Positions 9,754-32,677 of a stretch of DNA of 32,677 bases are shown here, one piece after another (the first letter of the stretch is position 1; the number at the start of each line of letters is the position of its first letter). Source of the DNA: Candidatus Poribacteria bacterium (GTDB lineage Bacteria; Poribacteria; WGA-4E; PCPOR2b); contig JADFGN010000014.1 of NCBI GenBank assembly GCA_022567695.1, positions 1-32,677 of the forward strand, in the 5' to 3' direction. Under the pieces are notes generated by a model. The model saw nothing but the letters and a program-made list of their open reading frames with translations, was not told where the DNA came from and made no database searches. The translations under genes and the position numbers were made by a program.

Positions 9754-11148
9754 ATGTCAGATGGAATAACGAACCGACCAAACTTTCTCTGGATTTACGG
9801 CGAGGATCTTTCTCCAGATCTTGCCTGCTACGGGACGCCTACCGTGCAAACACCAAACCTCAATCGCCTTGCATCGGAAGGGGCACTTTACACGAATGCC
9901 TTTGTCACCTGCCCCGTATGTTCCCCAAGCCGCTCAGCGATTATTACCGGAACGTATCAGACCAGCTTCGATGCGCATAACCATCGTAGCAACCGCGATA
10001 AACCGTTGCGCGAAGATATCCGGTTGATCACGGACTATTTTCGTGATGCGGGTTATTTTACCTGCAATAGCCCGGGGCCACCCTATAATCGTCCCGGCAA
10101 GACCGATTTCAACTTTTCCGTCCATCCACCGTTTAATGGGATGGATTGGAGCGAACGCGAACCGGGACAGCCGTTTTACGCACAAATCAACATTCCCGAC
10201 ACGCATCGGGACTTCACAAGAGATCCGGAGAACCCCATTGACCCGAATAAGGTCGAGTTGCCGCCCTACTATCCCGAACATCGCATCACGCGCATCGATT
10301 GGGCACACTACCTTGAGAGTGTTCAGGTCGTGGATCGGAAGGTCGGTCAAATTCTCAAACGTCTCGACGACGAGGAATTAACCGACAACACGATTATCTT
10401 CTTCATTAGCGACCACGGCAGGGCACACCCTCGCGGCAAGCAATTTCTGTACGACGGTGGCATCCGAATTCCATTGATTGTCCGATGGCCCCAAAACATT
10501 GAGCCGGGAACGGTTGTTGATGATTTGGTCAGCGGAGTTGACTTCGCACCAACTTGCTTGAATCTCGCCGGTATTGAAATCCCAGAGCACATGGAAGGGC
10601 AGATCTTTTTAGGCTCTGAATCCTCAGAACGCGAATGCGTCTTCGCCGCACGAGACCGATGTGATGAAACTGATGATCGCATTCGTTGTGTGCGAACGAA
10701 GCGTTGGAAGTACATCCGAAACTATTTCCCCGACCGTCCTTACACACAGTTCAATGCCTACAAAAAGAATCAATATCCCGTGTTGACGCTAATGCAGGTT
10801 CTCCATGCACAAGGTTTGCTTTCACCAGAGCAAGCAAGATTCATGGCATCCAAACGTCCAGCGGAGGAACTCTACGACCTCCAGCACGACCCGCACGAGC
10901 TACACAATCTCGTCGAAGATGAAGAATGCGAAGCGGTACGCAATGAACTCCGCTCAAGACTCGATCAGTGGATTATTGAAACGGGCGATATGGGGGAGAT
11001 TCCTGAGGGTGCTGAGGTCGTTGCGTATTGGGATAATCAGATGGCAGGGCAATTTGAAAAGTGGATGGAGAACAAGGGATTATCTTCCGACATCACCGAT
11101 GAAGAATACCTCGCTTGGTGGGAACAGAAACTGACGACCTCATTATAG
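9754..11148 (+). CDS. Sulfatase (S1 family, sulfamidase-like)
   Basis: A 464-residue sulfatase with the canonical Cys-type formylglycine signature C56-S-P-S-R60 in VCSPSRSAIITGTYQ. Metal-binding regions are FLWIYGEDLSPDLACYG at the start and FFISDHGRAHPRGKQFLYDGG in the middle. The GEDLSPDLACYG form resembles heparan N-sulfatase/sulfamidase-like enzymes rather than arylsulfatases. The C-terminal part has the usual TKRWKYIRNYFPDRP and ELYDLQHDPHELHNL elements and a Trp-rich tail. No signal peptide is apparent. GAAGGA lies upstream of the ATG. It needs formylglycine activation by an enzyme elsewhere in the genome. It is in the same direction as the dioxygenase and membrane protein, but repeat elements separate it from them. 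Confidence 0.93.
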   Translation: MSDGITNRPNFLWIYGEDLSPDLACYGTPTVQTPNLNRLASEGALYTNAFVTCPVCSPSRSAIITGTYQTSFDAHNHRSNRDKPLREDIRLITDYFRDAGYFTCNSPGPPYNRPGKTDFNFSVHPPFNGMDWSEREPGQPFYAQINIPDTHRDFTRDPENPIDPNKVELPPYYPEHRITRIDWAHYLESVQVVDRKVGQILKRLDDEELTDNTIIFFISDHGRAHPRGKQFLYDGGIRIPLIVRWPQNIEPGTVVDDLVSGVDFAPTCLNLAGIEIPEHMEGQIFLGSESSERECVFAARDRCDETDDRIRCVRTKRWKYIRNYFPDRPYTQFNAYKKNQYPVLTLMQVLHAQGLLSPEQARFMASKRPAEELYDLQHDPHELHNLVEDEECEAVRNELRSRLDQWIIETGDMGEIPEGAEVVAYWDNQMAGQFEKWMENKGLSSDITDEEYLAWWEQKLTTSL

Positions 11149-11221
11149 ATAGCAGAATTGGCTTATGTCAAAAGCAGTACACTGTTAAATAGGTCTTGAC
11201 AAATTAGGATAGTTATTTATA

Positions 11222-11283
11222 GCTGGGAGGGCAAGGCTCCTGTCGCGCCTATCTTGGTTCGGCGGGAGCCTCACCCTCCCGGC
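11222..11283. repeat. Long G+C-rich hairpin repeat
   Basis: GCTGGGAGGGCAAGGCTCCT and the right arm ending in CACCCTCCCGGC pair over about 24 bp (19 exact, the rest mostly G-T) around a short loop. It lies in the 343-bp gap after the sulfatase. No T-tract follows, so it is more likely a dispersed repeat than a terminator. The rest of the gap (11284-11491) holds no supported gene. Confidence 0.65.
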
Positions 11284-11491
11284 AACTTTGCACTTTATTT
11301 TACAGTGCAGTAGCGAGCTGTACGTTGCATTCTCGCGCAATACACATACAGTTTGTGACCCAAGTTACGGAATCGCGGAATAGAGATACGTATCATCCAA
11401 AAGCGATGAAGAATCTAATCTGAAAAAATCACTAAACCTGACGCACGACCAATTCACCCATCCGCGATTGCGACGAGGAGGTAGCGACTGA

Positions 11492-14400
11492 ATGAATAAT
11501 CAAAAGGTACAAGGATACAAAGCGAGAGGGAATTTCACGTTTCACGTTTTAGGTTTTCTGCTTTGCTTCGCTTTTTTCAACGGTCTTACATTAAATGCAC
11601 ACTCAGCATTAAATGCGAAATCGGATTCAAGTGGCATTACTGTTGAATTGAATCTTCCGGAATTGAAAACGACAACGGTAGAACACAACGGAATTCGATA
11701 TCAAACAGTTAGTTACGATGACAGCGGTTTTACAAACGAAGCGGGAAACCCTCGCCTTCCTGTTTCGAGAGTCATACTTGGCGTGCCGCCGGATACGAAT
11801 TTCCGCATTGAAGTGCAACTCGCAACGAACAAAACACAGCAGGGCTACCGCCTCCTGCCCGTTCCACATTTCGTTTCCCAACCCCGGAATAGCATCTCCA
11901 CTCCGAACCCTGTAGAAGAGATCCAAACCCCCGTAGAAGAATGGCGCGAGGATGGTCCCGCCTATCGAACAGGCGGTAGCTACCCTCACGATTTGGCACG
12001 TATTGTTTATGACGGTTACCTCCGCTCGCAACGCCTTATCTATCTTGAATTGCATCCCGTCCAATATGACGCGCGAACGAGATTATTACGGATTCACCCG
12101 CGCATGGTTGTGCGCGTTCATTTTGAAAATCAGTTCAGTCGTCCTACACCCAGCTACGACCAATCAAGTAGCAGTTCACAAATCTATTCAGCCCCCATTG
12201 TTCAGGAGCCGGAGCGATTCGAGAGGACATTCCAACACCTCATCCTGAACTACGATGAAGCCAAACGTTGGCGTTTACCCAGAGGAAAGAATAACCGCAC
12301 CCCAATGGCTCCCGCCGCCCGACAAGCGACGACAACGATGCGGTATAAAATCCTCGTCGATGAAACGGGCATATATCGATTGACAAGTGATGACCTGCGT
12401 CAAAAGTGGGGGATAGAGCTGAGAGATGTCGATCCCCGCTATTTGCATTTACAACGTTACGACACAGCGCGTGGTAACGAGAGCCAAGAGATTCCAATAT
12501 ACGTTCATGGTGAGGGAGATGGCCGTTTTGACCGTGGAGATTACATTGATTTTCTCGGCTTGGATGCGAAGGACAGATACACACGGTGGAACGTCTATTG
12601 GCTCAGTGTGGAAAAGACTCGGGGCGTGCGCGTTTCAGAACTCAACGCGAGTCCCGCCGATCCAACAGCAACGATTGTACCAGTTTTCCGTTCTAAAAAC
12701 CACTTTGAAGAAGACCATCTTACAAGTAATCTGGAACACGTTCATCCCGAGGATGTTTCGCCGGACGACAAACATGGTTGGTTTGAGGCTCTCGATTTTT
12801 GGTTTTGGACAGGCATCAAAAATTCAAGTGACTTTGATAAAAAAGATTTGGAATTCCCACTGTATGACCTCGCCCAGAGCTTTGCCCAACCGAAAATCCA
12901 AGTGACCTTGCAAGGTGGAACTCCCGCCAACCACGAGATCTTGGTCTCGCTCAATGACGTGCGAATCGGGGGCAAAAGCGCAAAATGGGAACGCCAGAAT
13001 TTTACGACAATTGAACGAACCTTGCGGGTTTGGGATAACTTACGAGACATCACTAAAGGCGACATGAACGTAATGAGTCTCGCGCGGGTCGATACGACGT
13101 CTGAAGATGACACAACGCGCTATCCTTACCATGTTTACATTAACTCTTTTGATGTGGAGTATACCCGTCTGCTGAAGGCGGTCAATGACTATCTTGAATT
13201 CTCGTCTCCCGCCAGTAAAGAGTCATATTCCATCCGTAGGCGCCGAAAATTGGAATATACCCTTCAAGCATTTCTTTCGCCTGACATAGAAATCTTTGAA
13301 TACGACGGCGAGAGGTTGATCTCCAAATTGCAAAATCCGAAAATCGCCCGCGTGGTTTTAGAGCGAGCTGAACGCGATCGCCTCCGTGCCATCTTTCAAT
13401 CCAACGTCGAGCGCGGAGAAGACGAAGAAGCGTTAGAGGAAATCTTTGATATTCCGCGTATCGCCTATAATGCAACTTTCCAGTTTCCTGACACTCGCAA
13501 TGCAAAATTCATTGCCGTTTCGTCGGCGGGGGTTCGTGAACCTGTCCACGTAGAAGCGGTACTCCCCAGCGATTTGCTGTCCAATTCCAACGGTGCGGAC
13601 TATCTAATCATTAGCCACCCCGTCTATTTTGAACCCGCACAAAAATTGGTAGCGTGGCGATCAACGCCGAAAGGGGGCGGATTTCGAGCAAAGGTGATTG
13701 ATGTCACGCAAATCTACAATATTTTCAGCAACGGTATGGTGAATCCACAAGCCATCAAGGAATTCCTAAAGTACGCCTATGAAAACTGGACATCACCCGC
13801 ACTCTCCTATGTTGCGATTATGGGCGACGGAACGTATGACTTTCGGGGAATCGACGAAGAGCTTTATCCAGAGGCTCCCGAAGTCATGGGTTATATCCCG
13901 ACTCACTATATCTGGACTAGCTCCTTCGGACGAACTTCGACCGATCACTGGTATACAACGGTTAGCGGCTTTGACGAACTCCCAGACTTCTTCATCGGGA
14001 GACTCAGCGCAGAGACGTTAGATCATGCCAACGCGATTGTCGACAAAATCGTTAATTATGAACGGAGTCGGCCAAATGGAAACTGGCGGCGTCAGATCAT
14101 TTCAGTGGCAGATGATGAAGTCAATAACTCTGGTGATTTCATCTTCAAAAAAAGTTTGACGGAAATTGCACAGAGTCGTACCCTCCTCGGTTATGAAACA
14201 ATTAAAATCTTCCTCGAAGATGTCATTGATATGGTGGAAGCAAACCCCCAAAACTTTCCGGGAAAATTACCGCAACGTGTGGCGAAAGATATGGTTATCG
14301 AGGCGTTGAGCCAAGGAGGCATTATCGCGCAATACGCGGGGCATGGAGGAAGGATTGTATGGGCGCATGAAGCCATCTTTGATAACGCCGCAATAGACCT

Positions 14401-17400
14401 GTTAGATCAGACAGACCATCTCCCGTTTATGCTGGTCTTGAGCTGTTATAACGGCTATTTTGATGCCCCCGGCGAACCGAGTATGGCGGAAAAGCTGCTT
14501 CGGAAAGATAGAGGCGGCATCATCGCTATGTTGAGTGCTACCCGCTTGACTTACGGTAGCGGTAACGATGCGCTCAATCGAATCATCTTCGACGACATAT
14601 TTAAGCGAAATGAACGGGAACTCGGTGCTATCAGCTTCAACTCCAAAGTGGAGCTACTCATGCAAGAGGGACTGGGTCAAATTGATGTGATGATGGCGTA
14701 CACCCTCTTCGGCGATCCGGCCATGAAGTTGGCGATGGCGGATTACGAAATGCAACCCAAGATCGAAACCAATACGGTTGCCCCGGGCGGTACGCTCAGA
14801 GTCGCGCCCGGACAGATCTATGAAGCGGATTATGATTCAAGGCTTAAACAGAAGACATTTACCCCGTTTCCAAATTTCAATGGCAAGCTACAGGTCAAAG
14901 CTATTTTCCCCGGCAAGTATAAGACCGTCGAAGGGAAAGAAGGCCCGGTTGAATTTTACACTGGGGATGTGACAGTCACGGAAGAATTGAGTGTCACCAA
15001 CGGTCGCTTCTCAGGGATTTCTATTACCGTGCCGAAAGAAATAAGCGCGGGAACCGCTCATGTAGAATATTACGCTGAAAACGCCACTCACATTGCCGTT
15101 GGAGGCGAGTCCTTCACGGTACTCGTACCCAAGATTCTCGATGTTCAGCCCGAAGTTGTGACTGACACCACATTCCGCATTTCCGCGCAAGTTTCGGATG
15201 AATTGGGAGATAAGGGCATCAAGGAGGTCACACTTGATTGGCGCAATCCAATCGTGCGGCAGTGGCAGACGGAAACAATGGTTCCAGATTCATCACGCGG
15301 GGAGGGATGGTATACCGTCTCACAACCATTGCCGTTGTCCGCGAATGGTGACACGATTCGATATCAGATCGTCGTCGTTGACACCGATGGGCGTCGCGTG
15401 GAATCCGAAACGCTGAGGTTCCGACCATTTGTGTTTCCAGATCTGAGAGTTGTAGACACGGCATCGTTTTCGGATGAACCGCTAATTTACTATCGCTATT
15501 CGTCTGAGGCGAATGCCTGGACGCTTAACGCAGATATCGAACAGGTTGAAGATGTCGAGTTGAAGGACAGTGTGGAAGTTGCCTTCTTTGAAGGAAATCC
15601 AGACCTTGACGAGGACAACGTTGTAGATGCAGATGCCAAGCTGATAGGACAAACGCAGCTCCGTCCCACAGCATGGAGTCGGCGAAATCCGCTAGAGCCG
15701 AATGAGAACTCAACACAGAGTTCATCCTCGCCCCTACGTACCTACCAGGAAGATCCTCTCAACACCAACTGGATCGCGACAGCGACCATCCAGCATGAAT
15801 TATCAATGGGCAACTACGAACTCTTCGTGTGGGTAGATGCCGTGTGGGAAAGCGATACTTCCAACCAAGAAACCACAAGCGTACCTCGTGGAAAGGTGCG
15901 TGAAGGTGATGAGACCGATAACATCAGCGTTCGCCGCATTCAGGTAAATGGGACTCTCATTGGGAAGGGCGATGTCCGTGCTTTCAGTCAAGATGGTGTC
16001 ATCGATTTCCGCGTGCCATCAAGCGCGATTGTTCAGCCCGCCGTTTTAACAATTACTCCACTCAAGGTACAAGAGGAGGGAGCAGGTTTCAACCTCGCTC
16101 TAACTGGGCGACAACCGAGTTTGAAGCCAATTGCGTTGCCAAATGGGAGTGATGCCGCTGCTTATCACGTCACGCTGGATGATGAGTCTCCTAACCTGAA
16201 ATTGAATCAACCGATTCCAGTCGAGATACGCTTCGATCTTGATGCCTTGAAAGCCAGTATTAGAGATGAGCTATTTGGAAGTGTTGAGGAGGACTCCGCA
16301 TTCCAACCAAGTATTATTGCTCTCGACCCCGATCAGATTGCAGCGATCAACGAAGGTGCTGAACAGCGGGCACAAGAGATTGGCGCGTATCTTTGGATCG
16401 ATACCCTCGGCAAATGGGTACGCCTCGATTCGGAATTGGTCACGTCTGCCAACAGGTTAATGCAGACCCAAACGGTGGTAGCAAACGTCCGTGAATCCAA
16501 TCATGGAAACGGCGAAATTGGTAATGCTACCGTAGCGTCAACAGAGGCAACCCCTGGTAAAAGGGTGCTGCTCTTCACATCTCCCAATACCTACCGATCG
16601 CTAATCGGCAAAGACGGTAATCCTCTAGAAGTTCTCAATCCAAATGAGACGATTAACCAATTCCAGGATAGCCAAAATTTCAGTGGGGGCGTTTCGATTG
16701 AAATAGAACCGGGTGAGAGGGCATTTCAGTTTGGGGATGTACTCACCTTTCAAGTCGCGCAATCAAGTAGCGAAACCAATGGAGGCTCAAGTTTTTATGC
16801 CTCATCTTTTCGTGAGCAGAACCGGGGAACTGGCACCATTCAATACATACGGCTGGCGTCGAATTCGGAGATGCCAGCGGATGGGTGGGTCATCTTATTG
16901 GTCGATTCGCAACGTTTCCAGGTGGAAGGCCAGAAAACTGGTATTTTATCCCGGAACAACCAACCGATTCTTGGTGTGGTTGGGGAGGAATTCACATATT
17001 CAGAGTTTGGTTTGACCCTCAAGATTACATCGGGCAAATGGAATTTTGAGGCTGGTGATAGCTTCCGATTTGAGACCAAAGAGGTCGGGCGCATACGTGC
17101 CGAAATTCCAATGCTCGGAAGAACAGCATTGATGCGAAGCGACGATACGATTCCACCAGATATTCAGTTAACCATTGGCAGGCAAAATTTCGTTGACGGC
17201 GATCCGATCTCCCCAGAACCGCTTATCCAAGCCACACTTGGGGATGATAACGGTATCGATTACATCACTCGCCCCATCCGCCTGGAAGTTAGCCAGGACA
17301 ACCGTGAATTTAAATTGATTCCAGAAACAGAATATCGACTAATTCACCGTACTGGGGCTAACCAAGTGGTCTTGAACTATCAATCTCCCAAGCTGGAACC

Positions 17401-17779
17401 TGGCACATATCAATTCCGTTTGACCGCAAGCGACCTTGACGGGAATGAATCTCAGCAAGAAATTGAAGCCCGTGTCCATAAACTGCTTCAGTTACTTAGA
17501 GCGATGAATTATCCGAATCCATTCAAGCGTGAGACAACGATCACTTGCGAACTCACAGGCGTTGCCGACGAAATGACCGTCAAGATCTACAGCCTATCCG
17601 GGCGTCTGATCCGAGAATTCAAGGAAGATGCTTCCGCCGGATTTATGATGATGCCTTGGGATGGCTATGATGAAGACGGTGAAGAGGTCGCAAACGGTGT
17701 TTACTATTGTAAGATTCGCGTTAAAATGGAGGGAGAGAAAGACCTCACGGAGTACATCAAGATGATGAAGCTGAAGTAG
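11492..17779 (+). CDS. Gingipain-like C25 cysteine peptidase with type IX-type sorting domain (PorU-like)
   Basis: A very large secreted protein. Residues about 1-38 form a signal peptide with the hydrophobic core FHVLGFLLCFAFFNGL. A region resembling the C25 propeptide follows (LPVSRVILGVPPDTNFRIEV). The C25 peptidase domain spans about 700-1080 with catalytic His951 in AQYAGHGG and Cys985 in VLSCYNGYFD. It ends in the usual TLFGDPAMKL. Next come beta-rich, probably Ig-like and CARDB-like regions. The last about 90 residues start with NYPNPF, include KIYSLSGRLIREF and end WDGYDEDGEEVANGVYYCKI, a FlgD-like type A sorting domain. The order matches PorU, the sortase of type IX secretion, or a secreted gingipain-like protease. 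GAGGAGGT lies about nine bases before the ATG. A PorV-like gene lies about 1 kb downstream, which favours the PorU reading. Confidence 0.88.
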   Translation: MNNQKVQGYKARGNFTFHVLGFLLCFAFFNGLTLNAHSALNAKSDSSGITVELNLPELKTTTVEHNGIRYQTVSYDDSGFTNEAGNPRLPVSRVILGVPPDTNFRIEVQLATNKTQQGYRLLPVPHFVSQPRNSISTPNPVEEIQTPVEEWREDGPAYRTGGSYPHDLARIVYDGYLRSQRLIYLELHPVQYDARTRLLRIHPRMVVRVHFENQFSRPTPSYDQSSSSSQIYSAPIVQEPERFERTFQHLILNYDEAKRWRLPRGKNNRTPMAPAARQATTTMRYKILVDETGIYRLTSDDLRQKWGIELRDVDPRYLHLQRYDTARGNESQEIPIYVHGEGDGRFDRGDYIDFLGLDAKDRYTRWNVYWLSVEKTRGVRVSELNASPADPTATIVPVFRSKNHFEEDHLTSNLEHVHPEDVSPDDKHGWFEALDFWFWTGIKNSSDFDKKDLEFPLYDLAQSFAQPKIQVTLQGGTPANHEILVSLNDVRIGGKSAKWERQNFTTIERTLRVWDNLRDITKGDMNVMSLARVDTTSEDDTTRYPYHVYINSFDVEYTRLLKAVNDYLEFSSPASKESYSIRRRRKLEYTLQAFLSPDIEIFEYDGERLISKLQNPKIARVVLERAERDRLRAIFQSNVERGEDEEALEEIFDIPRIAYNATFQFPDTRNAKFIAVSSAGVREPVHVEAVLPSDLLSNSNGADYLIISHPVYFEPAQKLVAWRSTPKGGGFRAKVIDVTQIYNIFSNGMVNPQAIKEFLKYAYENWTSPALSYVAIMGDGTYDFRGIDEELYPEAPEVMGYIPTHYIWTSSFGRTSTDHWYTTVSGFDELPDFFIGRLSAETLDHANAIVDKIVNYERSRPNGNWRRQIISVADDEVNNSGDFIFKKSLTEIAQSRTLLGYETIKIFLEDVIDMVEANPQNFPGKLPQRVAKDMVIEALSQGGIIAQYAGHGGRIVWAHEAIFDNAAIDLLDQTDHLPFMLVLSCYNGYFDAPGEPSMAEKLLRKDRGGIIAMLSATRLTYGSGNDALNRIIFDDIFKRNERELGAISFNSKVELLMQEGLGQIDVMMAYTLFGDPAMKLAMADYEMQPKIETNTVAPGGTLRVAPGQIYEADYDSRLKQKTFTPFPNFNGKLQVKAIFPGKYKTVEGKEGPVEFYTGDVTVTEELSVTNGRFSGISITVPKEISAGTAHVEYYAENATHIAVGGESFTVLVPKILDVQPEVVTDTTFRISAQVSDELGDKGIKEVTLDWRNPIVRQWQTETMVPDSSRGEGWYTVSQPLPLSANGDTIRYQIVVVDTDGRRVESETLRFRPFVFPDLRVVDTASFSDEPLIYYRYSSEANAWTLNADIEQVEDVELKDSVEVAFFEGNPDLDEDNVVDADAKLIGQTQLRPTAWSRRNPLEPNENSTQSSSSPLRTYQEDPLNTNWIATATIQHELSMGNYELFVWVDAVWESDTSNQETTSVPRGKVREGDETDNISVRRIQVNGTLIGKGDVRAFSQDGVIDFRVPSSAIVQPAVLTITPLKVQEEGAGFNLALTGRQPSLKPIALPNGSDAAAYHVTLDDESPNLKLNQPIPVEIRFDLDALKASIRDELFGSVEEDSAFQPSIIALDPDQIAAINEGAEQRAQEIGAYLWIDTLGKWVRLDSELVTSANRLMQTQTVVANVRESNHGNGEIGNATVASTEATPGKRVLLFTSPNTYRSLIGKDGNPLEVLNPNETINQFQDSQNFSGGVSIEIEPGERAFQFGDVLTFQVAQSSSETNGGSSFYASSFREQNRGTGTIQYIRLASNSEMPADGWVILLVDSQRFQVEGQKTGILSRNNQPILGVVGEEFTYSEFGLTLKITSGKWNFEAGDSFRFETKEVGRIRAEIPMLGRTALMRSDDTIPPDIQLTIGRQNFVDGDPISPEPLIQATLGDDNGIDYITRPIRLEVSQDNREFKLIPETEYRLIHRTGANQVVLNYQSPKLEPGTYQFRLTASDLDGNESQQEIEARVHKLLQLLRAMNYPNPFKRETTITCELTGVADEMTVKIYSLSGRLIREFKEDASAGFMMMPWDGYDEDGEEVANGVYYCKIRVKMEGEKDLTEYIKMMKLK

Positions 17780-18693: not shown

Positions 18694-18817
18694 AAAGCAA
18701 CTTAGATGAGGAAAAATTATGAGGTTTACACAACAAAGTTCTAGAAAATCGCTCCTGTTTCATTGTTCACATAGTTAATTGAGGAATGACAAATATCATG
18801 CAAGGAGAACTGAGTCG

Positions 18818-19855
18818 TTGAGCTTTGGAAAGAGGAATATTAAACAACCCATGCATCACCGTTTTTACGTCATCCTTATCTTGGTTGTTCTTCTCAATCA
18901 CACCACTGCCGACGCCGCAAACAAATTCGCCGGGGAATTCTTGACACTCGGCGTCGGCGCACGACCTTTAGGCTTGGGCGGAAGCTTTGCAGCAATCGCT
19001 GATGATTCGACAGCCACTTACTGGAATCCTGCGGGACTTGGGCGTTTGAGCCATTCCGAAGTTGCTTTCATGCATTCCAGCCTTGGTGATTTGGATAGCT
19101 ATGATTTCGTCAACTATATTCACCCGATTGGTAAAAATGGTTCTATCGGCGTCAGTTGGCTACGTGTTGGCATCGACGACATCCCAATTACGAGCCTACG
19201 TGTGACCTCTCGACCTATTGGACCGAGCAATCGTCCAATAGAGGATGGAACTTTTAGCAATACGGATAACGCTTTTATATTTTCCTACGGAAGACGAATT
19301 GGATTGGACCTACTAGACCTATATGTGGGTGGAAATGCTAAGTTGATTTATATCGCTTCCTTCGGCAACACAAATGCCTTTGGGCTGGGCGGAGACCTCG
19401 GTGTTCTCTGGAACACAAACCCTCAGCGATCTAGCCGGTTTTCAGTTGGTGTTGTTGCACAAGATTTCTTTAAGACGAAACTCTACTGGAACACCCCACC
19501 TGATGCTGAAGGGCAGGCATCGAATACAGACACAATCGATCAGAATTTAAGAATCGGTGTTTCTTACAGTCAGGACATTGCCTCCTTAAACAGCCGATTG
19601 CTGTTGACAACCGACACCGATAGTCTCTACTCCTTTGAAATGCACTACGGCGCAGAATACGTTTTCGCTGACCTATTGTCACTTAGGCTTGGCGTTCAGG
19701 AACGCAAGGGCTTGAACACGATTCGCCAACTAACGGCGGGTGCTGGTTTACGGCTCTCTTTCATCACAGGTGCAGCTTTTTCTATTGATTACGCTTTCCT
19801 CAGCAATGACGAGCTTGGAAATAGCAATCGAATCTCGCTGATGACACGGTTTTGA
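18818..19855 (+). CDS. PorV/PorQ-family outer membrane beta-barrel protein
   Basis: The protein has a signal peptide (MHHRFYVILILVVLLNHTTADA in part) followed directly by the family hallmark FLTLGVGARPLGLGGSFAAIADDSTATYWNPAGL. Alternating beta strands then run to a C-terminal strand ending in RF. In type IX secretion PorV binds the sorting domain of cargo and carries it to the PorU sortase at the outer membrane. The ORF track starts at TTG 18779. I prefer TTG 18818 because AAGGAG lies ten bases upstream of it. ATG 18851 is also possible but has no well-spaced ribosome-binding site. It is downstream of the C25/PorU-like gene, with only the toxin-antitoxin pair between. A related FadL-like/UPF0164 barrel cannot be excluded. 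Confidence 0.82.
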   Translation: MSFGKRNIKQPMHHRFYVILILVVLLNHTTADAANKFAGEFLTLGVGARPLGLGGSFAAIADDSTATYWNPAGLGRLSHSEVAFMHSSLGDLDSYDFVNYIHPIGKNGSIGVSWLRVGIDDIPITSLRVTSRPIGPSNRPIEDGTFSNTDNAFIFSYGRRIGLDLLDLYVGGNAKLIYIASFGNTNAFGLGGDLGVLWNTNPQRSSRFSVGVVAQDFFKTKLYWNTPPDAEGQASNTDTIDQNLRIGVSYSQDIASLNSRLLLTTDTDSLYSFEMHYGAEYVFADLLSLRLGVQERKGLNTIRQLTAGAGLRLSFITGAAFSIDYAFLSNDELGNSNRISLMTRF

Positions 19856-24893: not shown

Positions 24894-27800
24894 TTATCCA
24901 TCACCTTTCACAGGTAATCCGACGAAAAGGCGACTATCAACGTCCACAAGCCGTTCAACATCCTCGGTTGCTGCGGCGAGGGCGAAGACAATGCCGGGAC
25001 GCTTGGCTCGCATCGCACGTCCGAGAACAGTGAAGCCACCTCCGATGCCGCCCATTCCTTCCCCAAAGTATGTCTGTTGGCTTACCACTCGTGCCAATCC
25101 TTCCCAATGGCGGTGAATGATAGCGCGTAATTCATCGGATGTCAGACCGTCTCGGTAGCCGTGACGAACCTTGGGCGGGGTTGGCCTGTCGAAGTGAGAA
25201 CTGTTCCATCGGACAACGATCTGCGAAAGGGAATCCATTCTGCCTCGCGCCCCGCTCTTGATGGCGAGGAGTTGGGGGCCCAAATCGTTATCATCGAACT
25301 CCTTCCGTGTGGCAAGCTGCTCAATGAGTTCCTCCGTATACGCATCCCAAGTTTCCTCATCGGCATCTTCAGGTGGAGGTGTTCGCTGCAAACTTTCGCC
25401 AATAAACGGACTCATTGACATTCCCGACTCTTTAGCAAGCTCAAAGCCGCGGTGCATCAGGTTCTCAAGGCGGTCCAGCGTTTTGTTGACCCCCTCGCGT
25501 TTCAGGACCTCCCGCATTGCGTCGGCAAGCGTTTTCTTTGTAGCGAAGCCTTCGGCAGTTGTCGCAACGTCGGTTCCAGCAAGCCTTGAGATCTCCTGGC
25601 GTCCGGCAGGTGTACGACTGAGGTTTACAAGCCCCAACATCGACTCGTTGGCGGGGAGTAGGGTTGTCAGCAAGCCCGGAGTACGTTTAAAATGTCCCGC
25701 CACAGAAAGGAGTTCTCCTGCCTCACGCTGTCCCTCAGCAGTGACCGGTAGGAAGAGCGCGGCTTGATCGCCGTCGAAATCTGCATTCATTAGTCCGCAG
25801 ACGATTGGATCGATATGGAGCGCATTGTCCTCATGCCGTATGGGGTGAAACGCTAGGAATGAAGTGGGCATCAGTGCCGGCGCACGATACAGAATGACCC
25901 ACGAGTGTTCCATAATCTCGTCGAGTATTTGCGTTGCCTTCTGGGTTCGTGCATTGACATCGGCGTCGCTACCGATAATCCGCGTGACAAAGGGTCCAAA
26001 GAGTGTCCACGCCATCTTGTCTGGAATACCGACCTGATCATGTCTCAGGTCGATGTCCGGCTCGATCACTGCACGTCCACTGAAAAGGGTTGGCGTATGG
26101 AAACGCATATGCTCTGAACTAACGAGCGTGTCTAGGTATTCTCTAACACGTACCTCAAGTTGATTCAACGTTTGGCTGGTCAGGCTTTGGGGTGTACTGG
26201 TTGCCAACATCCGCTCGGCTCTTTCGTTAACTTCGACGAGTGCTTGGTAGGCGGCGAGTGAATTTTCATCCCGCCTTACTTTCTCGCCCACCCACCACAT
26301 TCCGTCGTGATACAAGTGTTTGGATTCGTCACCGCCCGTGTCCGTGCTCTCAAAAACACCAACTTGATTAAGGGTCTGGCTGCGAAGCCACGGATGAGGA
26401 ATTGGATGAGCCAATTTGAGGACTTTGCCTTCGCGGTGCGCGAACCGAAAAGCCAAATTTTCGCCATTAAGTTCGGCGCGAATTCCCGCAATTGCCAAAC
26501 GTTGCATAAGATTTGAAAACATTGGCGTGGGCGGACCAGCCTGTTGGATTTTGCCGGCTGCAAGCCGAGAAGCGAGGGTATTCGCATCAGGTCGTTCGGC
26601 AGAACAGGTGTTGAATCGATCTTTTAAGGTTTCAAACGCACCAAGGTCGCGTAACACAAGATATTCAGCATTCCCTAAACTTTGAGCTTCTGCACGTTCG
26701 CCCGTTGATACGGCGATTTTCTCGCGTGCGATGTGATAGAGTGTACCCCAGTAGACCCACCCCACCAGGCTAGGTCGCTGAAGCTTTTTGCCATTCCTAC
26801 CAAGCGTGAGGGTCTCCATTCCATCTTTGGGAAGGCCTGCGTCTTTCAAGCGTTTACGGAGTTCTTCACGGCTCGGTGCTTGAAATGGTGGTACAATGGC
26901 GGGTTTCCCCTCTGCTCGTGCGATGCGGCTCATGATCGCTTCTCGCAATTGACCAAGGGTCATCCGTGTCTGCAAGCCCATAAAGCTGTAAACAAGCTCT
27001 ACTGGTGTTCCATCAAGCAGATGTGGCATATCTTTGTCGGGAAGAATGCGCGTCACACACCCTTTCACGCCGTGCCGGTTGGCGAACTTATCGCCCGGCT
27101 CAACGGGGTGGGGATAGTTGAAACGTCCCGCGCACGATTCGCTCATAATGATTGCGTCCTCGAAAGTATCAACCCCCCAAGAGACGTAGGCAGTCAACAC
27201 ATTTCGTCCATACCAGAAGTCAGGTACATTGGGTTCATTGCCAGTCTGGACGAGAGCTGGCTCCGGATCTGGTGGTATAAAACACTGCCGCATCATGTTG
27301 ACGCCCATGAGTTGCCGATTGGCGTCATTGTGCTCCAAAAATGGCATCATCGTTGCGGTGAGCCCCAGTATCCCTTCAGGCTGGTTATCAATGATAACAA
27401 GCTTTCCATCCCGAATTTCAGCACCGACAGCAATACTCAAGATCGTCCCAACGCTTGGCCCCTCCGGCATCTCGAAAGGACAGACACGCCCGAAATGCGC
27501 GGGATTGTAAACCTTTTCACGCCATAAAACGCGGACACGCCTAAGATGCGTGTGCTTGTCAAGCCAATTTCTCTCCTGAAGCCGATTGTTCCACGACCCG
27601 TCAAGTATCAACTCTCGCACCCATGTGTCGAGCGGCATCCACGATTTGAGAAGCGACGCGCTCCACGGCAGGTCGGAAGATACGCCTTCCAAACGTACCT
27701 TAAAGTTGTCGTAAAACTGTTCGCCAACACACTTAATCTCAGCGGTATCTAATTCCTCATGTGAAGCAATTGGAACAATCACATAATGTTCACCGTCGAT

Positions 27801-28025
27801 TTTGAAAACGCCTTCCTCATCCGGGCAAGGAATATCGGTGTAAACCACTTCAACATTTCCAGATGAAGTCGCAAGCGATATCTTCACCTGACAAGTGTGA
27901 GAGCCGGTCGAAACAAAATGACAATCGTTGAGCGGGAGTCGGTCAGCCAAAAGCTGTGGTAATCGATCCGTCATCAATTGATCAAAAGATGCTTTATGCC
28001 AAAAGGCAGTGATGTTGCGTGACAT
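24894..28025 (-). CDS. Single-chain RNA polymerase-like protein: beta and beta' core motifs fused
   Basis: 1043 residues. Beta-like part: GVFKIDGEHYVIVP (72-85, compare the beta protrusion), HFGRVCPFEMPEGPSVGTI (177-195), MMPFLEHNDANRQLMGVNM (226-244), NVLTAYVSWGVDTFEDAIIM (275-294), GDKFANRHGVKG with both active-site lysines (K313, K321), and the clamp-anchor stretch VGWVYWGTLYHIAREKIAVS (421-440). Beta'-like part: FSGRAVIEPDIDLRHDQVGI (648-667), LYRAPALMPTSFLAFHPIR (712-730), catalytic NADFDGDQ (747-754, Asp749/751/753), SGARG (924-928) and HGYRDGL, then a bridge-helix-like HWEGLARVVSQQ. The protein ends soon after. I see no trigger-loop motif (SIGEPGTQLTMRTFH in E. coli) and no zinc ribbon; the beta lobe appears much reduced. 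Normal beta plus beta' exceed 2400 residues. It is probably an extra polymerase, not the housekeeping one. An ECF sigma gene lies upstream on the same strand. Confidence 0.88.
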   Translation of the reverse strand: MSRNITAFWHKASFDQLMTDRLPQLLADRLPLNDCHFVSTGSHTCQVKISLATSSGNVEVVYTDIPCPDEEGVFKIDGEHYVIVPIASHEELDTAEIKCVGEQFYDNFKVRLEGVSSDLPWSASLLKSWMPLDTWVRELILDGSWNNRLQERNWLDKHTHLRRVRVLWREKVYNPAHFGRVCPFEMPEGPSVGTILSIAVGAEIRDGKLVIIDNQPEGILGLTATMMPFLEHNDANRQLMGVNMMRQCFIPPDPEPALVQTGNEPNVPDFWYGRNVLTAYVSWGVDTFEDAIIMSESCAGRFNYPHPVEPGDKFANRHGVKGCVTRILPDKDMPHLLDGTPVELVYSFMGLQTRMTLGQLREAIMSRIARAEGKPAIVPPFQAPSREELRKRLKDAGLPKDGMETLTLGRNGKKLQRPSLVGWVYWGTLYHIAREKIAVSTGERAEAQSLGNAEYLVLRDLGAFETLKDRFNTCSAERPDANTLASRLAAGKIQQAGPPTPMFSNLMQRLAIAGIRAELNGENLAFRFAHREGKVLKLAHPIPHPWLRSQTLNQVGVFESTDTGGDESKHLYHDGMWWVGEKVRRDENSLAAYQALVEVNERAERMLATSTPQSLTSQTLNQLEVRVREYLDTLVSSEHMRFHTPTLFSGRAVIEPDIDLRHDQVGIPDKMAWTLFGPFVTRIIGSDADVNARTQKATQILDEIMEHSWVILYRAPALMPTSFLAFHPIRHEDNALHIDPIVCGLMNADFDGDQAALFLPVTAEGQREAGELLSVAGHFKRTPGLLTTLLPANESMLGLVNLSRTPAGRQEISRLAGTDVATTAEGFATKKTLADAMREVLKREGVNKTLDRLENLMHRGFELAKESGMSMSPFIGESLQRTPPPEDADEETWDAYTEELIEQLATRKEFDDNDLGPQLLAIKSGARGRMDSLSQIVVRWNSSHFDRPTPPKVRHGYRDGLTSDELRAIIHRHWEGLARVVSQQTYFGEGMGGIGGGFTVLGRAMRAKRPGIVFALAAATEDVERLVDVDSRLFVGLPVKGDG

Positions 28026-28068
28026 GATGTGTCCTCCTGTTTCAGAAATTCAGAGATATTAATACGAG

Positions 28069-28175
28069 TTTTTCAGTTAGCCGATCCTAAAACCTCTCCC
28101 CCGGCCCCTCTCCTGCGAGGAGAGGGGAGTGAGTATCTCCCCCTTCCCTCGCAGGGAAGGGGGCCGGGGGGGTTA
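28069..28175. repeat. Dispersed G+C-rich palindromic repeat block, second copy
   Basis: Starts TTTTTCAGTTAGCCGATCC and contains two hairpin units (CCCCTCTCCTGCGAGGAGAGGGG and CCCCTTCCCTCGCAGGGAAGGGGG). The first about 45 bases match the reverse complement of 6303-6349. It lies in the 324-bp gap between the ECF gene and the polymerase-like gene. Confidence 0.8.
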
Positions 28176-28238
28176 GGTCTGTGGTGTTGTTTTTCAATAA
28201 CTCACACTAAGCGTTTAAGAGATTTAGGATACAGGATT

Positions 28239-28340
28239 TTGCATCTTGCATCTTGCATTTTGCATCTTGTTAGAGCGCACTATCCTGTATCTTGCATCTT
28301 ACATCTTGTATCTTGCATCCTGTACTTTGCATTCTGTATC
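28239..28340. repeat. Heptanucleotide tandem repeat (TTGCATC)n
   Basis: Four TTGCATC/TTGCATT units at 28239-28266 and eight degenerate units (CTGTATC, TTGCATC, TTACATC, TTGTATC and so on) at 28285-28340, with 18 unrelated bases between. The array lies in the 5' region of the polymerase-like gene. The plus-strand ORF at 28029-28349, with its repeated SCILHLA peptide, is only a translation of this repeat. Confidence 0.85.
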
Positions 28341-28349
28341 TTGTCCTGA

Positions 28350-28955
28350 TCACTCCTCCCATTCGATTGCGAGTTCCTTCCACTCACGAGCAAGACGCTT
28401 CATCGTATAATGTAAACGTGACTTCACAGTACCTTCTGGAATACTCAGCAACCCCGCGACTTCCCGAATATCCATCTCCATTTCATATACAAGACGAACA
28501 ATCTCGCGCTTCTCTTCAGGTAATCCATCGACGAGCCGCTGAACCAAGTCATGCTGCTCAGCTTGTTCAAGCACTTCGTCTGGCCCAGGGGACGAAGCGT
28601 CGATCATCCAGTCGGGGCTAGGACTGAAGTGCTCTCCCTCTTCGTCGGTCTCATCCGGCGGGATTTCGAGCGGTCGTTGCCTTCGCCGACGCACCGTACG
28701 GAGATGATTGAGAGAAAGATTGGTTGCAATGCGATAAAGCCATGCTTTGAATTCACCTCGACCGTTCCACTGTTCAGCACACGTCCACACACGCAGAAAG
28801 ACTTCTTGTACGACATCATCGGCGGCGCTGCCGTCTCGCACCGCCCGTGCGACATGTCGGCGAATGGCATCCCGGTAACGCTCAAACAACGTGTCAAATG
28901 CGTTAGCGTCGCGTGCCCGAACTCTCTCAAGGAGATCTCCATCCGATGGTATCAT
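28350..28955 (-). CDS. ECF-family RNA polymerase sigma factor
   Basis: A 201-residue two-domain sigma factor. Region 2 (about 12-90) reads AFDTLFERYRDAIRRHVARA, then AADDVVQEVFLRVWTCAEQW and EFKAWLYRIATNLSLNHLRT. The linker is acidic (DETDEEGEH). Region 4 (about 132-190) reads LPEEKREIVRLVYEMEMDIR and EVAGLLSIPEGTVKSRLHYT. Length and order are normal for an ECF factor. AAAGGA lies five bases before the ATG. No anti-sigma gene is adjacent; the next gene on the strand, 324 bp away, is the fused RNA polymerase-like protein. The sigma factor may serve that enzyme or the normal polymerase; the sequence does not decide. Confidence 0.95.
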   Translation of the reverse strand: MIPSDGDLLERVRARDANAFDTLFERYRDAIRRHVARAVRDGSAADDVVQEVFLRVWTCAEQWNGRGEFKAWLYRIATNLSLNHLRTVRRRRQRPLEIPPDETDEEGEHFSPSPDWMIDASSPGPDEVLEQAEQHDLVQRLVDGLPEEKREIVRLVYEMEMDIREVAGLLSIPEGTVKSRLHYTMKRLAREWKELAIEWEE

Positions 28956-30202: not shown

Positions 30203-31327
30203 TTAACTTTCCAAAAGTTCGGCGCACCCCAAATCTTCAAAAGCAAGCGCAAACCTTTGTAAATCATGCCACCACGAGGGTTGATTATTCGCCCATCGCC
30301 ACACCGGAAGGTAAAACAGTTGAATCACACTCAACCTGTAGTCATACCACAGGTCATTTATGTCGTAGTCATCAACACCGTGTGCCAGTAGAGCACTGTG
30401 ATAGCGCAAAAGGAGATGTTTTTCTTGTGTCTGCCGAAATTGAGGATACCAGTAGAGTGCGATCATGTATGCAAGGTCTCTCGCCCCCGCGCAGATCTCC
30501 CAATCCGCCCAATCTATCATGTACACTCCGCCGGGGATCGAAGTCCGCGGAAGCAGATAATTCCATACATGCGAGTCTCGATGAATCAGGGTCAAGTGTT
30601 TTCGTTGCGAAAGACGCCTTACGAACGGAGAAGGCCATGCCGCGAAAATCTTTTCATAACTTTTGCGAATGGCGGAGGAGAGTCGATCGCCTAAGAAATC
30701 GGCAAATTCAGCAAACTTCTTCGCCGTGTTATCAACGAGACCTGTGAGGTACGCTTCCTCATAGAAATGCCCAACAATCTCTTTTCCGAGTCGCGAATCG
30801 TCCCACCATTCGGCGTGAAATTTTGCCACGCAGTCGATGATCTGTTCGCACTGCAATCTGGTTGGAGGTAAGGGTTCCGACTCCAGCACATGATGTGTTT
30901 CTGATACGTCTTCAAGTAGAAGATGGTAATGCCCAATCTCCTGCGAATAGACCGCATCATAGCAACCGACAACTGGTGGGTCGATCATCATGTCGGCAAT
31001 AACGTTATAAAAGAAAACCTCTTTGATCGCCCAATCGTCGAAGCATTCATGTAATGAACGTTTTAAGAACAATCGTCTCGGTGCGGATTCGGGGGCGTCA
31101 TCCGAGTAGTTGACGTTCAAAAAGGAGATCACCGAGGCATATCGCATCGGGAACGACGTCGCCTCGACTTTCGTGACTCTCCCGTGAGAGAGGCCCCCTT
31201 TTTCATGAAGTCGCTGGGTCAACCACTCCGGAGTAATCTGTTCCGTACTCGTGATGACTTTCTTCATTTCTTTTTTTCGCCGGAAGTCAAGGCTCTGGCT
31301 TTCCGATTGCCCGTATTGTCGCTGCAC
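30203..31327 (-). CDS. Aminoglycoside-phosphotransferase-fold kinase (APH/ecdysteroid-kinase-like)
   Basis: A 374-residue small-molecule kinase-like protein. LFLKRS (Lys89) would hold ATP. The catalytic loop is LIHRDSHVWNYLL (HRD 249-251, Asn256) and the metal-binding motif is YMIDWADWEICAGARDLAYM (Asp272). The pattern fits the choline/aminoglycoside phosphotransferase superfamily, close to the ecdysteroid kinase-like/DUF1679 type. The acceptor substrate is unknown. The start is GTG 31327, supported by AAAGGAGGG about nine bases upstream; Met21 (MKKVIT) is a later possible start without a clear site. It converges with the PhyH gene and has an alpha/beta hydrolase remnant upstream. Confidence 0.85.
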   Translation of the reverse strand: MQRQYGQSESQSLDFRRKKEMKKVITSTEQITPEWLTQRLHEKGGLSHGRVTKVEATSFPMRYASVISFLNVNYSDDAPESAPRRLFLKRSLHECFDDWAIKEVFFYNVIADMMIDPPVVGCYDAVYSQEIGHYHLLLEDVSETHHVLESEPLPPTRLQCEQIIDCVAKFHAEWWDDSRLGKEIVGHFYEEAYLTGLVDNTAKKFAEFADFLGDRLSSAIRKSYEKIFAAWPSPFVRRLSQRKHLTLIHRDSHVWNYLLPRTSIPGGVYMIDWADWEICAGARDLAYMIALYWYPQFRQTQEKHLLLRYHSALLAHGVDDYDINDLWYDYRLSVIQLFYLPVWRWANNQPSWWHDLQRFALAFEDLGCAELLES

Positions 31328-31362
31328 TATAAATACCCTCCTTTAGAAACGGCTTGTTAGGC

Positions 31363-31896
31363 TTATCTCATTTCTGACAAAAACCTCTTGATGTGAGGTA
31401 GCACCAAATCACTCCGTACATAGGCGTCACCATGAATGAGGTCAGGTAGAGAAATGAAAACAGAATTCGGGATATGTTTTACACACTCTTTTATCGAAGA
31501 GTACATCAATTCGTCGGATTCACCCGCGTATAGCAAACAAGGCATCTTCATCGCTGGTAAAATATCTGCACAGCCACTCCAATCCCGCGCGGCGATTGTT
31601 GATGCAATTAGAGCTTGTGCATCATTTTTCAGAAATCGACCTCTTTCTTTTGGCGACTTTTGTCCCCATGCGTCTGCGGCAGCCGGTATTCCTTTTGTTA
31701 AAATCTGAATCTGTTGATTGTAAACTTCAGGATATTGAGGGGCGTAGGGATGCATCCCTCCGATGATTAAAGAGCGTGTTCGTTCAGGGGCGTATTTTGC
31801 AATGCCAAAGCAAACCTCGCCACCCATCGAATATCCCATGAAATGAGCCTTTAGGATTTCGAGTTTATTGAGGACAACGATAACATCATCGACTCG
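31363..31896 (-). CDS. Alpha/beta hydrolase, 5' part missing
   Basis: From about VDDVIVVLNKLEILKAHF the protein is a normal alpha/beta hydrolase: nucleophile elbow GYSMGG with its Ser, LLYAGESDELMY carrying the acid, and DLIHGDAYV carrying the His. The first about 80-90 residues, with the oxyanion-hole strand, are missing. The 40 residues that precede this in the track's ORF come from reading the G+C-rich segment backwards and are not hydrolase-like. The gene is cut at about 31893-31900, where composition changes abruptly. It is therefore either truncated in nature or broken by a mis-join. Confidence 0.75.
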   Translation of the reverse strand, partial: RVDDVIVVLNKLEILKAHFMGYSMGGEVCFGIAKYAPERTRSLIIGGMHPYAPQYPEVYNQQIQILTKGIPAAADAWGQKSPKERGRFLKNDAQALIASTIAARDWSGCADILPAMKMPCLLYAGESDELMYSSIKECVKHIPNSVFISLPDLIHGDAYVRSDLVLPHIKRFLSEMR

Positions 31897-32180
31897 TTCG
31901 AGGCCTTCGAGGACGAAGACCGCGACGGGGACGACTCTCCCTAGATCCAGGAACACCGCGTGCCCACACGACCGTCCTTCAGTGTCTGCGAATTCTCCGA
32001 CTCCTTCCATTCACTGTGGGCGGAGATGGCCGAGGACGTCGACTACAGCAAGCACTTCCTCGCCGCCGGGGCGATCAACAAGCTGGCCGAGAACCTCCAG
32101 AAGCAGGGCAAGCCGGTCCAGGCGGTCTCCTACTTCGCCCAGGTGGCGATCGACTTCCGCCGGAAAAACGCCAACGCCGC
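31897..32180 (+). other. G+C-rich foreign-looking segment coding on the plus strand
   Basis: About 284 bp much richer in G+C than the surroundings, with strong third-position C/G in plus-strand frames. It carries the end of one protein (FEAFEDEDRDGDDSP then TAG at about 31944) and the inside of another (WAEMAEDVDYSKHFLAAGAI, then NKLAENLQKQGKPVQAVSYF). Neither continues into the flanks. The segment separates a 5'-truncated hydrolase from a 3'-truncated sialidase-like gene, both on the minus strand. Confidence 0.6.
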
Positions 32181-32633
32181 ACCTGCGTCGGTGGAGAAAG
32201 TAGCATACCAGTTCCCTGTCACCAAGATTTCTGAGCCTCGTACGGCAATGCTCGGTTCATTCACGGTACTCGTGACGCCGCTGGTCTCGGAGTCCGTCAA
32301 TGGGCGGTTGGTGATAAGCCTTATCGTGGTCGCCGCGACTGAGGTTGCCATTACGCTCGGCGCCGGCGCGGCGCGCACAATCGCTAGCGGGGCCACGCCT
32401 ATCGGCACCGGGAGATGGTGATCACGTAAACGAGACTGTCTCGCGGCAAGTTCCGCCTGTGGATTTGGCGGCATCAGAGATCTCGCAGCCTGAGATGCCG
32501 TAACCGTTCTTGGGGCCGGCACGGACGCCGACTTCGCATTGAAATCCTCCGCAGATGTGAACCCTGTGAAAAGCCACAAGGCAACGAAATACGTTAAGGA
32601 AACCGTTCCTCTAAACTTCATGACCTTACGCAT
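32181..32633 (-). CDS. Secreted sialidase/BNR-like protein, N-terminal part only
   Basis: The start ATG 32633 follows an AAAGGAGG site about seven bases away. The first about 28 residues are a signal peptide (TVSLTYFVALWLFTGFTSA). An Ala/Pro-rich stretch follows, then TVNEPSIAVRGSEILVTGNW and YATFSTDAGA. These resemble the first blade of sialidase-like BNR-repeat proteins, where a Ser-Thr-Asp-x-Gly Asp-box-like turn follows an EPSIA strand. The frame then runs into the G+C-rich segment and loses similarity (AFFRRKSIATWAK). The remainder of the propeller is absent. Confidence 0.55.
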
Positions 32634-32677
32634 GTGAGCCTCCTTTATTGAAAAGTACGAGTGCCTTGTTGATTGCA

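Follow-up and report, generated by a model that had tools for sequence, protein, structure and literature searches.

The window analysed here (32,677 bases) spans the entire contig C194 of a Candidatus Poribacteria draft genome, which comprises 7.3 Mb in 733 contigs and is about 91% complete, with an estimated contamination of 6.7%. The contig terminates at base 32677, as extraction of the locus with flanks gave sequence on the left side only (1500 + 1378 = 2878 bases). Its final ~790 bp, from about 31890 to 32677 and lying within 800 bases of the contig end, carry a series of gene fragments that follow a truncated hydrolase gene (Table 1). Comparisons with relatives were made on a panel of 97 genomes, only eight of which belong to the same family as the host, and it needs to be mentioned that 10 of 80 sampled contigs of the assembly read as N (masked).

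Table 1. Features at the right end of contig C194, in window positions.
Feature	Positions	Strand	Basis
Alpha/beta hydrolase, C-terminal part; N-terminal ~76-116 residues missing	31363-31885	-	Pfam Abhydrolase_1, E=6e-5 (below gathering score), and 15 related-genome homologs
Piece A, end of an open frame (...IDSFEAFEDEDRDGDDSP, stop TAG 31942-31944); may continue into piece B	31886-31945	+	Frame and GC3
Piece B, open on + strand (VPTRPSFSVCEFSDSFHS); GC3 lower than in piece C	31946-32012		TPR homology stops short
Piece C, internal fragment of a ~600-aa TPR protein (WAEMAEDVDYSKH...FRRKNANAA), both ends cut	32013-32186	+	Identity to L002 and L022
Junction zone C/D	32172-32214		Bases fit TPR family (APASVEKVAYQF, +) and sialidase family (GNWYATFSTDAGA, -)
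Piece D, sialidase-like N-terminal part with a signal-peptide-like start, lacking ~370 C-terminal residues	32187-32633	-	48% identity over 50 aa, Ruegeria conchae protein
End of contig	32677		Locus L034, left flank only

The body of the contig is, judging by homology, native to the lineage at least up to a fused RNA polymerase gene at 24894-28025, since this protein has close relatives (about 50-64% identity) in seven of the eight same-family genomes. The composition of the hydrolase gene (44.0% G+C, ordinary for the genome) also fits a native contig body. That this gene lacks its start, as the original prediction stated, is borne out by its alignment to the 15 related-genome homologs, which begins only at VIVVLNKL, near 31884; the homologs have 76-116 further upstream residues, including an LLHGWGG segment that is absent here. 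By this comparison the hydrolase gene is cut at the left edge of the tail.

Composition changes beyond this edge. The stretch 31890-32183 has 63.6% G+C. Windows of the same length drawn from 750 kb of the genome average 48.1% (sd 4.7%), and 0.05% of them reach such a value. In the 57 codons from 32017 GC3 is 0.95, above all 14,915 windows of 57 codons taken from 380 long ORFs, where the genome maximum is 0.912. Scored by a third-order Markov model, the tail is only slightly low (z -2.4). The claim of a G+C-rich patch of unlike composition, coding in the opposite direction to its neighbours, thus stands, with homology supporting + strand coding between 32017 and at least 32183. What does not stand is the idea of a single foreign patch, as at least two pieces are present, with a change at about 32012.

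Homology to a TPR protein identifies the second of these pieces. A 74-residue + strand reading from 31960 had one relative in a scan of public bacterial and archaeal genomes, namely an interior stretch of a 618-aa protein of the Lentisphaerae MAG K_DeepCast_250m_m2_056 (L002, 53% identity). This family is carried by 10 of 289 sampled genomes of the same phylum, mostly as ORFs of 540-640 aa, and the best match there (L022) reaches 63% identity across 56 aa; aligned across 66 aa it is 59% identical, with E=8e-22 in a small database. The homology runs on the + strand from the W at 32017 to at least 32183 and, more weakly, to 32214. Piece C resembles the ~600-aa TPR proteins of that phylum in being 53-63% identical to them over 53-56 aa, and differs from them in having neither N- nor C-terminus: only ~57-66 interior residues are present, rather than a complete gene with a start and its TPRs. 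The family was not found in the 97 relatives of the host, nor was a second copy or the remainder of the gene found in the assembly. As far as homology can tell, piece C represents an interior segment of a gene, with affinity to a different phylum.

The homologs carry other sequence upstream of the position matching 32012, and TPR homology does not reach piece B. Between 31890 and about 32012 there is a stop codon (see piece A), and codon bias is unlike that of piece C, the shift falling at about 32012. Pieces A and B had no significant relative; plasmids gave chance matches only, and nothing significant was found in the 289 genomes of the TPR protein's phylum. The patch is therefore composite, the material before ~32012 differing from the material after it. 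The same break bears on the possibility that the patch is a real small gene, starting at GTG 31960 and encoding a short TPR protein. The frame is indeed open from 31960 to 32421, with AGGA placed 7 bases before the GTG. However, the codon bias break lies inside this proposed gene, homology is limited to the interior of a ~600-aa protein, and the frame beyond ~32214 runs antisense to the sialidase-like gene. We consider a genuine small gene here extremely improbable. As homology covers the interior only and the homologs differ upstream of 32012, piece C is better read as a mid-gene fragment for which GTG 31960 is an unsupported start.

The right flank was originally described as a sialidase-like gene without its end, and the missing end is clear. 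Piece D matches a 425-aa protein of Ruegeria conchae plasmid NZ_CP081104.1 (WP_170543932.1; 57.5% identity over 40 aa by tblastn), and the match breaks off after ~56 family residues. The two proteins share a GNWYA-type N-terminal motif, whereas piece D is cut after those ~56 residues and has an additional N-terminal leader of ~100 aa. Neither the missing C-terminal part nor a second copy was found in the assembly, and the family was not found in the 97 relatives of the host. At 57.5% G+C for 32187-32633, a value that 1.1% of windows reach, piece D is G+C-rich, and together with the lack of any relative in related genomes this means that it cannot count as native; it is probably foreign too. 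Of the two native neighbours assumed by the original prediction, only the hydrolase, ordinary in composition, keeps this status, as the sialidase-like side looks foreign. Against the genomes of the TPR protein's phylum, piece D itself gave only weak matches (E about 0.02-0.04) and the full family a single distant one, so that a common donor for pieces C and D is not shown. Since the bases at the C/D join fit both families, the two may possibly have a short stretch in common there, which would leave the exact position of the join uncertain.

The hydrolase, TPR and sialidase-like pieces are each cut at the joins, and a functional element is absent. At least three unrelated pieces, in frame, truncated but undecayed, lie end to end within 790 bp and adjoin the contig end. 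The adjoining pieces seem to derive from different organisms: piece C matches another phylum and no relative of the host, and the family of piece D is absent from the relatives. With such pieces set end to end at the end of a contig in a contaminated draft, chimeric reads or mis-assembly offer the best explanation, and we regard it as quite probable that the tail is artefactual. In this scenario, the true contig would have been joined near 31885-31890, either in the reads or by the assembler, to short stretches of DNA that belong to other organisms of the sample, one or more of them from another phylum. We infer that the joins were made in the laboratory or in the computer and not in a cell. 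The tail is like chimeric or mis-assembled ends of metagenome-derived contigs in its unrelated truncated genes, its composition break and the contamination signal; it is unlike them in that several very short pieces stand in a row instead of one join.

Several observations count against an artefact. The pieces measure 60-190 bp, less than one would expect from an ordinary assembly mis-join, and for none of them was a close source genome found. Nor did a sample of ~70 contigs show chimeric ends to be common in this assembly. Among these readable contigs, 10.5% of contig ends deviate by more than 0.10 in G+C, compared to 0.8% of windows. Three G+C-rich ends were inspected closely (L068, L074 and L051); they carry long native-looking ORFs, one of them frameshifted, and no foreign mosaic. 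Several contigs have near-identical short stretches in common at their ends, a pattern that repeats would give. Because of these long ORFs and repeat-like shared ends, the excess of deviant ends was left out as evidence.

On one hand, the row of pieces might be a natural scar, left when several short stretches of foreign DNA were taken up through illegitimate recombination or end-joining repair and native DNA was lost. Several discontinuous donor segments lying near one another are reported as a possible outcome of natural transformation (PMC13344027), and join bases that fit both families at C/D are compatible with a short shared stretch. Nevertheless, such an event requires at least three pieces from unrelated donors to adjoin one another, exactly at a contig end, undecayed and in a contaminated genome, which makes it unlikely; that repair or transformation stitched several fragments of 60-190 bp, derived from unrelated bacteria, together at a single locus in an uncultured bacterium seems to us slightly less likely still. 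A literature search on short-patch double illegitimate recombination and on metagenome contig-end chimeras gave no paper on precisely such a case.

On the other hand, the original prediction had attributed the joins to chimeras of single-cell whole-genome amplification or to mis-assembly. Amplification by MDA (phi29) does yield chimeras whose parts meet at short complementary sequences of 2-21 nt (PMC1855051), and the abrupt joins seen here, possibly at short shared sequence, are alike in this respect. However, more than 85% of MDA chimeras are inverted sequences with intervening deletions (PMC1855051), and their parts are adjacent on the chromosome (PMC4595205); they are mostly inverted nearby copies of one template, whereas here a gene of another phylum is involved. 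When 31300-32677 was compared with its own assembly in both orientations, nothing beyond chance matches of 18-21 bp was found (the assembly being ~91% complete, with some contigs masked as N), and no overlap of the contig end with other contigs of the assembly was found. As no part of the tail matches its own genome in either orientation, the typical form of an MDA chimera, made of rearranged or inverted parts of that genome, is not what we see, and this reading would require co-amplified foreign DNA. It is thus very unlikely, and metagenome mis-assembly or chimeric reads fit better. What remains of the earlier proposal is that unrelated DNA has been joined here, with the gene on either side truncated, and that chimera or mis-assembly is favoured as the cause; single-cell amplification specifically is not supported, given the lack of own-genome matches and the piece that points to another phylum.

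Searches of phages and plasmids with the patch DNA found nothing, and in IMG/VR no relative turned up for the TPR piece, piece D or the Ruegeria protein, so there is no sign of phage origin. As a matter of annotation hygiene, the final ~790 bases of contig C194 are best regarded as suspect, and neither a gene fusion nor a foreign insertion nor a gene loss in the lineage should be deduced from the hydrolase, TPR and sialidase-like fragments.

Elsewhere in the assembly, a gene of L074 near its contig end (~11000-11966) is seemingly frameshifted, with two overlapping frames of one formylglycine-generating-enzyme-like protein. The gene at 24894-28025 (-) encodes a single-chain 1043-aa protein with RNA polymerase beta-like and beta'-like domains, in which NADFDGD is kept and which is distinct from canonical rpoB; two more canonical beta-subunit-like matches lie on contigs C216 and C635 of the draft genome, possibly as contamination. 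The fused protein is conserved at 1024-1104 aa in those seven same-family genomes and in both genomes of another family. An ECF-type sigma factor gene lies just upstream of it, at 28350-28955 (-), and a sigma-like ORF also stands upstream of its relatives in L137-L142 and L145; this conserved pair is worth separate study. Degenerate short repeats (translated ...SCILHLASCILHL...) occupy 28029-28350, just upstream of the polymerase gene, and in L145 a leader of similar, repeat-like kind (LRITHYALRITYY) stands before the relative. The contig also encodes a 2095-aa PorU-like protein (type IX secretion sortase) at 11492-17779 (+), followed at 18779-19855 (+) by a PorV-family protein (NCBIfam).
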